A stretch of DNA of 64,000 bases from Sutterella megalosphaeroides. GTDB taxonomy: Bacteria; Pseudomonadota; Gammaproteobacteria; Burkholderiales; Burkholderiaceae_F. Of the stretch, positions 49,570 to 54,689 are shown in pieces (the first letter of the stretch is position 1; every line of letters begins with the position of its first letter). The notes beneath the pieces were generated by a model. That model did not search any database. It was given only the letters and a program-made list of their open reading frames with translations, and was not told the DNA's origin. The position numbers and the translations under genes were made by a program. Location: the NCBI RefSeq assembly GCF_003609995.1, contig NZ_AP018786.1:62001-126000 (forward strand), in the 5' to 3' direction.

Positions 49570-50184
49570 ATGAAAGTCATCGCCACCACGCGTAAGGCGC
49601 AAGGTACGAGTGCGAGCCGCCGTCTGCGCCGCGCGGACAAGCTGCCCGGCATCGTCTACGGCGGCCACGAACCCGCTACGCCGATCGAGCTCGAACACAA
49701 TCCGATTTTCTACGCTCTGCGTAAGGAAAAGTTCCACGCTTCGATCCTGACGATGGAACTCGACGGCAAGGAAGAACTTGTCGTTCTCCGCGCTTTCCAG
49801 ATGCACCCCTACAAGCCCCAGGTCATGCACATCGACTTCCAGCGCATCGCCGCTGACGAAAAGGTCACGATGCGCGTGCCCCTGCACTTCTCGGGCGCCG
49901 AAGAAAGCCCCGCCGTCAAGGTGGACAAGGCCATCATCAGCCACACGGTTTCCTACGTCGAAGTCCAGTGCCTCCCGCGCGAACTTCCCGAGTTCATCGC
50001 CGTCGACCTCTCCAAGATGGAATCCGGCATGACGCTCCACTCGAAGGAACTCGCGGTTCCCGCCGGCGTTGAAGTCGTCACCGACGTCGTGGTCGCCTCC
50101 GTGATCGCTCCGGTCGAAGAAGAAGTGACCGTCGCCGAAGGCGAAGAAGCCGCCGAAGCCCCCGCTGCGGCCGAAGCCAAGTAA
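49570..50184 (+). CDS. rplY: 50S ribosomal protein L25 / general stress protein Ctc
   Basis: A 204-residue long-form L25. The N-terminal 5S rRNA-binding domain (1-95) begins MKVIATTRKAQGTSASRRLR; the C-terminal Ctc domain (about 100-185) follows and ends in an Ala/Glu-rich tail. The long form is common in betaproteobacteria next to prs. AGGAG lies 7 bases before the start. A terminator follows. Confidence 0.95.
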   Translation: MKVIATTRKAQGTSASRRLRRADKLPGIVYGGHEPATPIELEHNPIFYALRKEKFHASILTMELDGKEELVVLRAFQMHPYKPQVMHIDFQRIAADEKVTMRVPLHFSGAEESPAVKVDKAIISHTVSYVEVQCLPRELPEFIAVDLSKMESGMTLHSKELAVPAGVEVVTDVVVASVIAPVEEEVTVAEGEEAAEAPAAAEAK

Positions 50185-50415: not shown

Positions 50416-52308
50416 ATGGCCACTTTTTCCGAACTTGGTCTTTCCGATGACATCGTGAGCGCGCTCTCGCAGCTCGGTTTCGAAGAACCCACCCCGATTC
50501 AACAGGAGGCAATCCCCGCGCTGCTCGACGGACGCGACGTCCTCGGTCAGGCCGCCACCGGCACGGGCAAAACCGCAGCCTTCGGGCTCCCGCTCCTCGA
50601 CCGCCACGTCGTGGGCGCCGAACCCGATCTCCCGCTCATCCTCGTTCTCACGCCGACGCGCGAACTCTGCCTGCAGGTGAGCGAATCGTTCCACAACTTC
50701 GGCCGCAACGCGGGCATCATCGTCACGCCCATTTACGGCGGGCAGGAGTACGGCCGCCAGATCCGCGCCCTGAAGCGCGGCACGCACGTCGTCGTCGCGA
50801 CGCCCGGCCGAGCGCTCGACCACATCAACAAGGGTACGCTCGACCTCTCCGCCCTCAAAGCGATCGTTCTCGACGAAGCCGACGAAATGCTCGATCTGGG
50901 CTTTGCCGACGAACTCGACGCCATTTTCAACGCCGTGCCCGAAACGGTGCAGACGGCGCTCTTTTCCGCGACGCTCGCCCCGCGCATCGCCCGCATCGCC
51001 GAAGAACACCTCAAGGACCCCGTGCGCATCCAGATCGCCCGTGAAGAAACCGCGGACGGCGAAGCGCCCCGCGTGCCGCAGATCGCGTACGTGGTGGGTC
51101 ACAACTACCGCCTGCCCGCGCTCGGTCGCATTCTCGACCTCGAAGGGCCCGAACTCGCCATCATCTTCACGCGCACCCGCACGGAAGTGGACGAACTCAC
51201 CGAAGCGCTGCGCGCCCGCGGCTGGAGCGTCGAAGCCCTGCACGGCGGGCTCGATCAGCCCACGCGCGACCGCGTGATGAAGCGCGCCCGCGCCGGTCAG
51301 GTCGACGTGATCGTCGCCACCGACGTCGCCGCCCGCGGCATCGACCTTGAAAACCTCACGCACGTCGTCAACTTCGGCATCCCCGCCTCCTACGACACGT
51401 ACGTGCACCGCATCGGGCGAACGGGCCGCGCCGGCCGCACGGGTACCGCCATCACGCTCCTCGAGCCCCGCGAACACCGTCATCTGCGTGCGATCGAACG
51501 CATCACGAAAAGCCGCATCGAAATCCGCTCCGTGCCCTCCGCCACCGACGTGCGCGCGCACCGTCTCGAAGTCGTGCGCGGCTCCGTCGAAGAAGTGCTC
51601 CGCGAGGGCGACCTCGAACGCTTCCGCGTCGTCGTCGAAACGCTCTGCGAAGAGCACGATCCCTTCGACGTGGCGGCCGCGGCCATCCGTCTCGCACTCG
51701 AGAGCGAAGGCGGCGTGGACGACGACACCGACATTCCCGCGTTCTCGCCTTTCGAGCGCCCGAAGCGCGATCGCGCCGAACGGGGCGAACGGACCGAACG
51801 CAACGGTCGCGAGCGCCGCGACCGCTCGGCCGGTCCCGAAGCCGGCATGAAGCGCATCTTCTTCGGCGCCGGCCGCGACGTCGGCGTGCGCCCGGGCGAC
51901 ATCGTCGGCGCCTTTGCGAACGAATCGGGCATCCACTCCCGCTCGATCGGCGCGATCGACATCTCGGACCGTTTCACGCTCGTCGAAGTCGAAGAGGCCG
52001 TGGCGGAACGCGTGGTCGAAGCCATGCAGGGCGTGCGCTACAAGGGCCGCAACGTGCTCGTGAAGTTCGACGAACCGCGTCGCCGCGAAGAACGTTCGGA
52101 CCGCTCCGACCGTGCGGATCGCGGCGAACGCTCCGACCGAAGCGACCGCGCCGATCGGGGCGACCGAGGCGAACGTTTCGAGCGCTTCGGCGACCGGACC
52201 GAACGCAACGAGCGCAACGATCGCTACGACCGCAATGATCGAGGCGATCGCCGCGGCAACGGCCGATTCGACCGGTTCGAACGCAACGGCCGCGGTCCGC
52301 GTCGCTGA
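50416..52308 (+). CDS. DEAD-box ATP-dependent RNA helicase (DeaD/CsdA-like)
   Basis: A 630-residue helicase. The Q motif is FEEPTPIQQEAI, motif I AATGTGKT (46-53), Ia PTREL, II DEAD, III SAT, IV-VI HGG, ATDVAARGIDL and HRIGRTGRAGR. A DbpA-like RNA-binding domain (about 475-555, MKRIFFGAGRDVGVRPGDIV) follows, and then an 80-residue Arg/Asp/Asn/Glu-rich low-complexity tail. The order fits CsdA/DeaD, which remodel RNA in ribosome assembly and cold adaptation. The gene lies between rplY and pth, where relatives usually lack it. The 171-base leader may contain cold-shock-type control. Confidence 0.92.
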   Translation: MATFSELGLSDDIVSALSQLGFEEPTPIQQEAIPALLDGRDVLGQAATGTGKTAAFGLPLLDRHVVGAEPDLPLILVLTPTRELCLQVSESFHNFGRNAGIIVTPIYGGQEYGRQIRALKRGTHVVVATPGRALDHINKGTLDLSALKAIVLDEADEMLDLGFADELDAIFNAVPETVQTALFSATLAPRIARIAEEHLKDPVRIQIAREETADGEAPRVPQIAYVVGHNYRLPALGRILDLEGPELAIIFTRTRTEVDELTEALRARGWSVEALHGGLDQPTRDRVMKRARAGQVDVIVATDVAARGIDLENLTHVVNFGIPASYDTYVHRIGRTGRAGRTGTAITLLEPREHRHLRAIERITKSRIEIRSVPSATDVRAHRLEVVRGSVEEVLREGDLERFRVVVETLCEEHDPFDVAAAAIRLALESEGGVDDDTDIPAFSPFERPKRDRAERGERTERNGRERRDRSAGPEAGMKRIFFGAGRDVGVRPGDIVGAFANESGIHSRSIGAIDISDRFTLVEVEEAVAERVVEAMQGVRYKGRNVLVKFDEPRRREERSDRSDRADRGERSDRSDRADRGDRGERFERFGDRTERNERNDRYDRNDRGDRRGNGRFDRFERNGRGPRR

Positions 52309-52344: not shown

Positions 52345-53490
52345 ATGAGCAAACCCATCCGACTCATCGTCGGTCTCGGCAATCCGGGTGCCGAATATGC
52401 CGATACCCGCCACAACGCGGGCTTTCACTTCGTCGATGCGCTCGCCGCCAAGTTCGGCGTGCGCATGAGCGAAGATCGCAAGTTCCAGGGCGAAGTCGGT
52501 CGCCTGAGTCTCGACGGTCGCGAGGTGTGGCTTCTCAAGCCCTCCACCTACATGAACGCTTCGGGCCGGTCGGTCGTCGCCCTTGCGCTTTACTACAAGA
52601 TCCTTCCGGACGAAATCCTCGTCGTTCACGACGAAATGGACCTGGAGCCCGGTCTCATGCGCCTCAAGCTCGGCGGCGGCAACGCCGGCCACAACGGCTT
52701 GAAGGACATCAGCGCTCAGCTCTCGACGCCCGACTTCTGGCGCCTGCGCCTCGGGATCGGCCACCCGAAGAAGCTCGGCCTCGCTCAGGAAGTCGCCGTC
52801 TTCGTGCTCGCGGCTCCTTCGGCCGAACACCGCGAGAAAATCGCCCGCTGCCTCGAGGCCGCACTCGACACGATCCGCGACATCGTCGCGGGTTCGATCG
52901 AGAAGGCCGTGCGTACGCTCGCCCCCTTCTCGGGTCAGAAGGAAAAGCAAAAAGCCGCTCGGACTCCGTCCGGGACGAGCGAACCGAAGGCGAAGGGCGA
53001 CCGCATCGTCGTCTCCCGGTGCCTCCTCGGCTACACCTGCCGCTACGACGGCGAGTCGCGTCCCTCGATCCTTGAAAAGCTCGAAGCCAAAAGCTGGACC
53101 AAGGACGACATCGTGACGATCTGTCCCGAGATGGAAGGGGGTCTTCCCTGCCCGCGCGAACCCGCCGAAATCATGGCGCCGGGCTCGGACGGCCACGCCG
53201 TGCTCGCGCACGAAGGGGAAGTAGTCGATCGCACCGGTACGGACGTGACGGCGCAGTATCTGCGCGGCGCCCGCAAGGCGCTCAAAACCGCCAAGGCCGC
53301 AAACGCTCCTTTCGCGCTTCTCAAAGCGCGCAGCCCCGCGTGCAGTCCCTCGGGCATTTACGACGGCTCGCACACGCGCACGCTCGTCCCCGGACAGGGC
53401 GTGGCGGCCGCGCTCCTCGCGAAAAACGGCTACGTCCTTTTCTCCGAAGACGATCTCGATCGCATTCCCGCGAAGCGCTCGGAATCCTGA
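52345..53490 (+). CDS. pth: Peptidyl-tRNA hydrolase fused to a DUF523/TudS-type domain
   Basis: A 381-residue fusion. Residues 1-195 are Pth, which frees tRNA from peptidyl-tRNA: GLGNPG (10-15), catalytic His23, substrate-binding Asn13, Asn71 and Asn117, and Asp96 in HDEMD. A Lys/Pro/Ser-rich linker (196-218) leads to a DUF523 domain (about 220-375). In this family TudS has 2-thiouracil desulfurase activity through a [4Fe-4S] cluster held by three cysteines; here C226 (SRCLLG), C260 (ICPE) and C333 (SPAC) are the candidates. The reading frame is continuous and no second start is needed. The usual order is rplY-pth-ychF, so the pth part is in its normal place. Confidence 0.88.
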
Positions 53491-53594: not shown

Positions 53595-54689
53595 ATGGGT
53601 CTCAAATGCGGCATCGTCGGCCTGCCCAACGTCGGCAAGTCGACCATCTTCAACGCTCTCACCAAGGCGGGCATCGCTGCGGAAAACTATCCCTTCTGCA
53701 CGATCGAACCGAACGTCGGCATCGTGGAAGTGCCCGATCCCCGTCTCAAGGCACTCGCTGAAATCGTGAAGCCCGAACGCATCGTTCCGGCCGCCGTCGA
53801 ATTCGTCGACATCGCCGGTCTCGTCGCGGGCGCGAGCAAAGGCGAAGGCCTCGGCAACCAGTTCCTCGCGAACATCCGCGAATGCGACGCCATCGCCCAC
53901 ATCGTGCGTTGCTTCAACGACGACAACATCGTGCACGTCTCGGGCAAGGTCGACCCCATCGACGACATCAACGTGATCAACACCGAGCTCGCGCTCGCCG
54001 ACCTCGCGACCGTCGAAAAGGCCCTGAACCGCTACTCGAAGCAGGCCCGCTCGGGCGGCGACAAGGAAGCCCTCAAGCTCGTGCTCGTTCTCGAAAAGAT
54101 CCAGCCGGTGTTGAACGAAGGCAAGGCCGTCCGTACGGTGAAGCTTTCCCCCGAAGAGTTGGCCGTCATCCGTCCGCTCTTCCTCCTCACCGCCAAGCCC
54201 GCCATGTACGTGGCGAACGTCGAAGATCACGGCTTTGAAAACAATCCGCTCCTCGACGCCGTGCGCGCCTACGCCGCCGAAGAGCACGCCCCGGTCGTCG
54301 CGGTTTGCGCGAAGACCGAAGCCGACATCGCCGACCTCGACGAAGAGGACAAGCAGATGTTCCTCGAAGACATGGGCATGACCGAGCCGGGGCTCGATCG
54401 CGTGATTCGCGCGGGCTACGACCTCCTCGGCCTTCAGACCTACTTCACGGCGGGCGTGAAGGAAGTGCGCGCCTGGACGATCCACAAGGGCGACACGGCG
54501 CCTCAGGCCGCCGGCGTCATCCACACCGACTTCGAACGCGGCTTCATCCGCGCCCAGACGATCGCCTTCGACGATTTCATCGCGTTCAAGGGCGAAAAGG
54601 GCGCCCAGGAAGCGGGCAAGATGCGCGCGGAAGGCAAGGACTACATCGTTCAGGACGGCGACGTCATGAACTTCCTCTTCAACGTCTGA
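53595..54689 (+). CDS. ychF: Redox-regulated ATPase YchF (OLA1 family)
   Basis: A 364-residue Obg-like ATPase. P-loop GLPNVGKS (9-16), G2/G3 region with [11 protein letters not shown], the unusual NxxE specificity motif region (YVANVED) that favours ATP, and a TGS domain near the C-terminus ([19 protein letters not shown]). It binds ribosomes and affects oxidative-stress responses in E. coli. It follows the pth fusion, the conserved order. Near-perfect match to the family length (363). Confidence 0.96.

Follow-up and report, generated by a model that had tools for sequence, protein, structure and literature searches.

A single open frame in Sutterella megalosphaeroides was found to encode both a complete peptidyl-tRNA hydrolase (Pth) and a desulfurase domain of the TudS type. 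The frame occupies positions 52345-53490 (+) of the window, the 64,000-nucleotide stretch of DNA that was analysed, and specifies a protein of 381 amino acids. On balance, and with limited confidence, we favour the reading that the protein joins Pth to a TudS of the stand-alone type that salvages or detoxifies imported thiouracil, the tudS gene having been kept beside pth and then fused to it in S. megalosphaeroides. Relatives are referred to below by genus, family (Burkholderiaceae_F), order (Burkholderiales) and phylum (Pseudomonadota).

Both domains were matched nearly end to end by curated profiles (Table 1). The Pth part matched PF01195 over residues 7-191 with an E-value of 1.3e-63 and 214.6 bits (cut-off 27; model positions 1-181 of 183) and TIGR00447 with 199.3 bits (cut-off 100), that is, as a full-length domain above the curated cut-offs. 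N13, H23, N71, D96 and N117, which we take to be the catalytic histidine and partner residues of Pth, were all present and were invariant across 32 aligned Pth sequences out of 68 gathered. PF01195 matched no other gene in the genome, which is a single contig of 2.7 Mb. The second part matched PF04463 over residues 221-370 (E 2.4e-39, 135 bits at a cut-off of 34.7, model positions 1-141 of 141), and the only PDB sequence that it matched was TudS (E 1.5e-25). An AlphaFold2 model of this domain, built on 55 sequences, reached a pLDDT of 94.9 and was matched by Foldseek to five chains of the PDB entries 6zw9, 6z96, 6z93 and 6z92 (E ~1e-15, TM 0.78-0.88), with no non-TudS match in the PDB at E <=0.001. 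The second domain thus has the full length of the TudS profile, above cut-off, and the TudS fold. The residues between the two domains resemble the basic, lysine- and proline-rich C-terminal tail seen in many relatives whose Pth is a protein on its own. This linker is predicted to be flexible, with a mean pLDDT of 58 for residues 201-210 and 42 for residues 211-220 in a full-length model whose alignment consisted of Pth rows and the fused protein only, and which is uninformative for the TudS part or domain contacts.

Table 1. Features of the fused gene and its neighbours, in positions of the window.
Feature	Position	Strand	Basis or remark
Ribosomal protein L25, in the older prs-L25-pth order	49570..50184	+	Pfam
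DEAD-box helicase with DbpA RNA-binding domain, upstream neighbour	50416..52308	+	Pfam
Fused pth-tudS gene, start to stop	52345..53490	+	Single frame and both Pfam domains
Pth domain, residues 7-191, carrying N13, H23, N71, D96, N117	52363..52917	+	PF01195, TIGR00447
Basic linker, residues 192-220	52918..53004	+	Likeness to Pth tails of relatives
TudS (former DUF523) domain, residues 221-370	53005..53454	+	PF04463, model match
C226, equivalent of ligand Cys10	53020..53022	+	C in 40/40 family and 72/72 other TudS
C232-R233; R233 = Arg17	53038..53043	+	C232 is V in 72/72 TudS outside the family
C260-P261-E262; C260 = Cys43, E262 = catalytic Glu45	53122..53130	+	Alignment to TudS_A
S330-P331-A332-C333 = Ser101, Pro102, Ser103 (here Ala), Cys104	53332..53343	+	Alignment to TudS_A
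ychF GTPase, downstream neighbour	53595..54689	+	Pfam

C226, C260 and C333 were present and aligned with Cys10, Cys43 and Cys104 of TudS_A, the [4Fe-4S] ligands according to the available text of PMC10611767, and a cluster of this kind would accordingly be placed on these three cysteines. The equivalents of Glu45, Ser101 and Arg17 were likewise found (E262, S330 and R233). The first-pass annotation had described a complete Pth and a DUF523 domain in one frame, separated by a basic linker, and had named the five Pth residues and the three candidate cluster cysteines; all of these were recovered. The position of Ser103 is occupied by Ala332. Since Ser103 is described in the available text of PMC10611767 as assisting catalysis and not as a cluster ligand, the substitution was not counted as excluding the domain from TudS; it does count against the preferred reading. 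Alanine was found at this position in 12 of the 40 family TudS sequences, within the genus in S. megalosphaeroides only, and serine in 72/72 others. The residue preceding Arg17 was cysteine in 22/40 family sequences and in all 11 of the genus, and valine in 72/72 outside; Ser101 was retained in 39/40. These two active-site changes (positions 53038-53040 and 53338-53340) are peculiar to the family, with 0/72 outside it. As a thiol near the cluster, C232 could be a fourth ligand or a sulfide acceptor.

The join itself was evaluated from the reading frames of the linker. Between 52900 and 53034 all three frames were free of stop codons, and the last ATG, GTG or TTG of the desulfurase frame was the one at 52909, a position within Pth, at which internal initiation is conceivable. 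With every frame of the linker open and a separate tudS start lacking, a single frameshift error does not explain the join, since correcting one miscounted base would not restore the separate genes of the relatives; a join by frameshift or assembly error was rejected from these reading frames. In addition, no ambiguous N was present in the 20 kb of genome surrounding the fused gene, and gene order at the locus matched that of relatives. That a sequencing or assembly artefact merged two genes, a possibility that the earlier annotation had itself raised, is thus highly improbable, even with the fused frame known from one isolate of S. megalosphaeroides. How an ambiguous base can mimic a fusion was illustrated by G002, the second genome with pth and tudS in one frame. 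There the junction reads through an ambiguous N on a contig rich in single and double N, of which two stretches of 20 kb contain 30 and 22 (52 over the 40 kb), and this case was set aside. As far as the sequence tells, the fusion is genuine; it was seen in S. megalosphaeroides alone, a species represented by one genome, G002 being doubtful.

The fusion was viewed against the distribution of tudS in relatives. PF04463 was found in 11/12 genomes of the genus, in 40/67 of the family, spread over 7 of its 18 genera, in 38/399 of the order sample and in 176/397 of the phylum sample. The 38 comprise 9 family genomes and 29 from elsewhere in the order, among them G113, in which the match is a contig-end fragment below cut-off. 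In all 40 tudS-bearing family genomes tudS lay directly 3' of pth on the same strand, as separate genes in 38 and in one frame in two (S. megalosphaeroides and G002). Thus the fusion is absent from close relatives, where the earlier annotation had suggested looking for it, though pth and tudS are adjacent in every tudS carrier. In the 38 separate loci the tudS start was taken to be whichever candidate lay nearest the TudS domain; relative to the last base of the pth stop codon it fell between 26 bases upstream and 145 bases downstream. A 4-base overlap of start and stop is a usual sign of coupled translation, and such an overlap is possible in 10 of the 38, which suggests that the two genes are translationally coupled in the family. 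The two genes stay adjacent while the upstream gene varies: a DEAD-box gene preceded pth in 22 of the 40 loci and L25 in 10, the upstream gene being out of view in 8, and ychF followed tudS in 39/40. The DEAD-box helicase of S. megalosphaeroides (50416-52308) carries a long Arg/Asp/Gly-rich tail and is placed between L25 and pth.

Outside the family, pth was not detected near tudS in any of 72 loci (tblastn, E 1e-4 or better) comprising all 28 above-cut-off order-sample genomes and 44 loci of the phylum sample, viewed with 1.5-2 kb per side where the contig allowed. Conversely, 26 further pth loci were inspected in 25 genomes, namely 16 of the 27 tudS-less family genomes and 9 order genomes, one of them (G049) with a tudS at another locus. 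In these loci prs and L25 preceded pth in 22, ychF lay behind it in 10, and tudS lay behind it in none. In a 17th tudS-less family genome, G010, pth was looked for and not found. In G073 (88% complete) tudS and Upp were both missing although the surrounding clade has the two, and its pth and ychF lie ~65 bases apart (L057). In G026, which belongs to a different genus of the family, one frame continues from tudS into the GNAT acetyltransferase domain that follows it (L014:796-1977, minus strand; PF04463 at residues 10-159 and PF00583 at 215-303), and ychF is absent from the stretch viewed. A search of contigs with exact peptide patterns returned two distant Pth loci only, the patterns being too strict to reach relatives.

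A tree of 112 TudS sequences (40 of the family and 72 others) was employed in order to place the TudS domain of the fused protein. A fully supported branch of 12 sequences stood apart from the other 100; six of the 12 were scanned for domains and all six were TudS-DUF1722 proteins. The TudS of the fused protein fell among the 100, within its own genus (11 rows, support 100/93), and on this tree it is grouped with stand-alone TudS, apart from the TudS-DUF1722 branch. The 40 family sequences required 3 changes on the tree and a single grouping was not rejected (AU p 0.351), so that one origin of the family TudS was neither shown nor rejected. Pth and TudS were aligned separately, as a joint alignment had matched TudS rows to the Pth region and was discarded. 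The end branch of the fused-protein TudS was long (1.21 vs a median of 0.29). We make no claim of faster TudS evolution after fusion because mean identity to congeners, 45.4%, lies within the congener range of 45.1-54.5%, and because the Pth branch is also long (0.56 and 0.5 vs medians of 0.1 and 0.11).

Whether the joining has any function bears on a further explanation, namely that two abutting genes merged by a neutral accident, each domain folding and working by itself and the joining serving no function. Within the genus one tudS-bearing genome in 11 is fused, plus the doubtful case, the linker resembles a pre-existing Pth tail and is predicted to be flexible, and the GNAT protein of G026 indicates that fusion of tudS to an adjacent gene has happened repeatedly. 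Set against this, 38 of the 42 TudS positions invariant in ten congeners were kept in the fused protein, cluster ligands included, which argues that the TudS domain is under constraint while fused. We regard an accident of this kind as somewhat unlikely; it departs from the preferred reading only by denying a benefit.

Other joined forms of TudS were looked for as well. Outside the order the phylum sample has at least 12 PF04463 frames of >=350 residues, which were taken together with other loci. Ten proteins were scanned, of which six were TudS-DUF1722 and four were TudS alone behind unmatched N-terminal stretches; pth was not present within the stretches around the long frames. The four (L123, L124, L125 and L142) have ~120-230 residues without a Pfam match ahead of the TudS domain, representing either unknown fused domains or an untranslated upstream frame. 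Among mobile elements, none of 150 matched plasmid records and none of 36 matched phage records covered >=80% of the fused protein at a single locus.

ThiI is the synthase of 4-thiouridine (s4U), and MnmA makes 2-thiouridine. The ThiI profile (TIGR00342, a single profile), which E. coli matched as a positive control, had no match above cut-off in any of the 67 family genomes, S. megalosphaeroides included. Weak matches of ~30 bits or less were observed in 44 family genomes, most of them around model positions 170-210; the one in S. megalosphaeroides was the MnmA gene. Elsewhere in the order ThiI exceeded the cut-off in one (G156) of 44 genomes tested (28 with tudS and 16 without). 4-Thiouridine is therefore probably not made in the family, and 4-thiouridine of the cell's own making is an unlikely substrate. 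MnmA was above cut-off in 59/67 family genomes, including all 40 with tudS and 19 of the 27 without. The uracil salvage enzyme Upp was above cut-off in 46/67 (38/40 with tudS, 8/27 without), or by genus in 7/7 with and 4/11 without tudS (Fisher p 0.013); G065 and G066 (L043 and L042) have tudS without Upp. Placed on a Pth tree of 56 of the 67 genomes, the association was reduced to only 3 independent pairs, 2.7 of them on average in the same direction, too few for a sign test to attain significance at 0.05 (median p 0.25). Part of the gap in Upp is also attributable to poor assemblies, since the near-universal MnmA was itself missed in 8/27 tudS-less genomes; of the 19 tudS-less genomes having MnmA, 7 had Upp. 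The link between Upp and tudS, weakened by shared ancestry and poor assemblies, is at most suggestive.

Published work on TudS was consulted for its substrate. In the available text of PMC10611767 TudS prefers 4-thio-UMP, and 2-thio isomers showed no saturation and no specific binding; the available text of PMC11417400 reports no significant effect of stand-alone TudS on tRNA s4U. In S. aureus, Upp renders 4-thiouracil toxic and the C. difficile TudS relieves this toxicity (PMC12210855), and its reference list includes work on an advantage in the gut linked to TudS in C. difficile. The first-pass annotation had further proposed that thio-modified uracil or tRNA fragments released during turnover are handled by the same protein. 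This proposal is weakened by the absence of ThiI above cut-off in 67/67 family genomes, and a route by 2-thiouridine, for which MnmA is present in all 40 tudS-bearing genomes, is weakened by the lack of saturation with 2-thio isomers in the available text of PMC10611767. The earlier interpretation was therefore supported in its domains and cluster cysteines and weakened in its function. Its statement that no such fusion had been described held in the open-access literature searched, most subscription papers lying outside the search: no Pth-TudS fusion was found among the papers listed, none of the open-access papers searched mentioned both peptidyl-tRNA hydrolase and DUF523, and neither the TudS paper (PMC10611767) nor the RudS paper (PMC11417400) has the term "peptidyl-tRNA" in its main text.

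Comparison with known systems places the fused protein close to stand-alone TudS (TudS_A, PDB 6Z96, and the P. putida and C. difficile proteins). It shares with these the fold, the three cluster cysteines and the Glu45, Ser101 and Arg17 equivalents, and it sits on the same side of the tree; it differs in having TudS behind Pth, in its alanine for Ser103 and in the cysteine beside Arg17. From bacterial Pth, with which it shares the whole domain and the catalytic residues, it differs in bearing a C-terminal desulfurase. In RudS, the TudS-DUF1722 tRNA 4-thiouridine desulfidase, TudS is likewise tied to a second domain, Pth being the would-be tRNA binder here. Unlike RudS, the fused protein has no PF08349 (DUF1722) match, its TudS belongs to a different branch and is C-terminal, whereas TudS precedes DUF1722 in the six TudS-DUF1722 proteins scanned, and its host has no ThiI above cut-off; most, not all, RudS hosts have ThiI according to the available text of PMC11417400. 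G156 (L130), the sole ThiI-positive genome among the 28 tudS-bearing order genomes outside the family, carries TudS-DUF1722; the DUF1722 scan covered part of the other 27.

Pth is a tRNA-binding enzyme, and it could be a handle that brings TudS to thiolated uridines, the fusion being a tRNA eraser or quality-control enzyme resembling RudS. In RudS the fused domain, DUF1722, makes TudS a tRNA desulfidase; stand-alone TudS left tRNA s4U without significant change (available text of PMC11417400). Larger substrates were what the authors of the TudS study anticipated for forms with fused domains (available text of PMC10611767). Because a partner domain redirects TudS in RudS and because the pairing with pth extends across 7 genera, in 40/40 tudS-bearing family genomes, a tRNA-directed role was retained for consideration, and the adjacency could alternatively reflect a functional tie to tRNA. 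It is nevertheless unlikely, as the standard s4U target in tRNA is probably absent, the thio-uridine that remains to the cell through MnmA is of the 2-thio kind, and the two proteins are kept apart in 38/40 relatives. A more far-reaching version, that Pth and TudS form one functional unit throughout the family in which Pth presents tRNA, perhaps freshly released, to a TudS of altered active site (cysteine beside Arg17, and alanine for Ser103 in several lineages) that desulfurates 2-thio or mis-incorporated thio-uridines in tRNA, we consider improbable. If true, Pth-TudS would be another type of tRNA desulfurase besides RudS, one needing neither DUF1722 nor ThiI.

The preferred reading, that of thiouracil salvage or detoxification, would proceed as follows. 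In ancestors of the family tudS would have become the gene immediately 3' of pth within the prs-L25-pth cluster, which is older, and was probably translated in step with pth. The stop codon of pth and the start of tudS would then have been lost in S. megalosphaeroides, giving one chain in which Pth is joined to TudS through the flexible basic tail. The Pth part would free tRNA from stalled peptidyl-tRNA as usual, and the TudS part, with its putative [4Fe-4S] cluster on C226/C260/C333, would desulfurate small thio-uracil compounds. The most likely substrate would be 4-thiouracil or 4-thiouridine taken from outside and converted to 4-thio-UMP via salvage enzymes such as Upp, so that desulfuration would feed the uracil pool and keep s4U out of new RNA. 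Both the substrate and its import are proposed here, and an outside source of thiouracil for the host is assumed. The fusion would presumably add little beyond a fixed 1:1 expression of the two parts, and it is more likely an outgrowth of a long-standing gene neighbourhood than a new tRNA-repair machine.

These results make Pth a second joined partner of a TudS desulfurase, besides DUF1722, and reveal a conserved pth-tudS pair in bacteria that seemingly do not make s4U, the modification of tRNA supposedly recycled by TudS. The evidence from the family uncouples stand-alone TudS from s4U of the host and favours imported thio-pyrimidines, and the fused protein of S. megalosphaeroides provides a simple test case of whether a tRNA-binding partner suffices to direct TudS onto tRNA.
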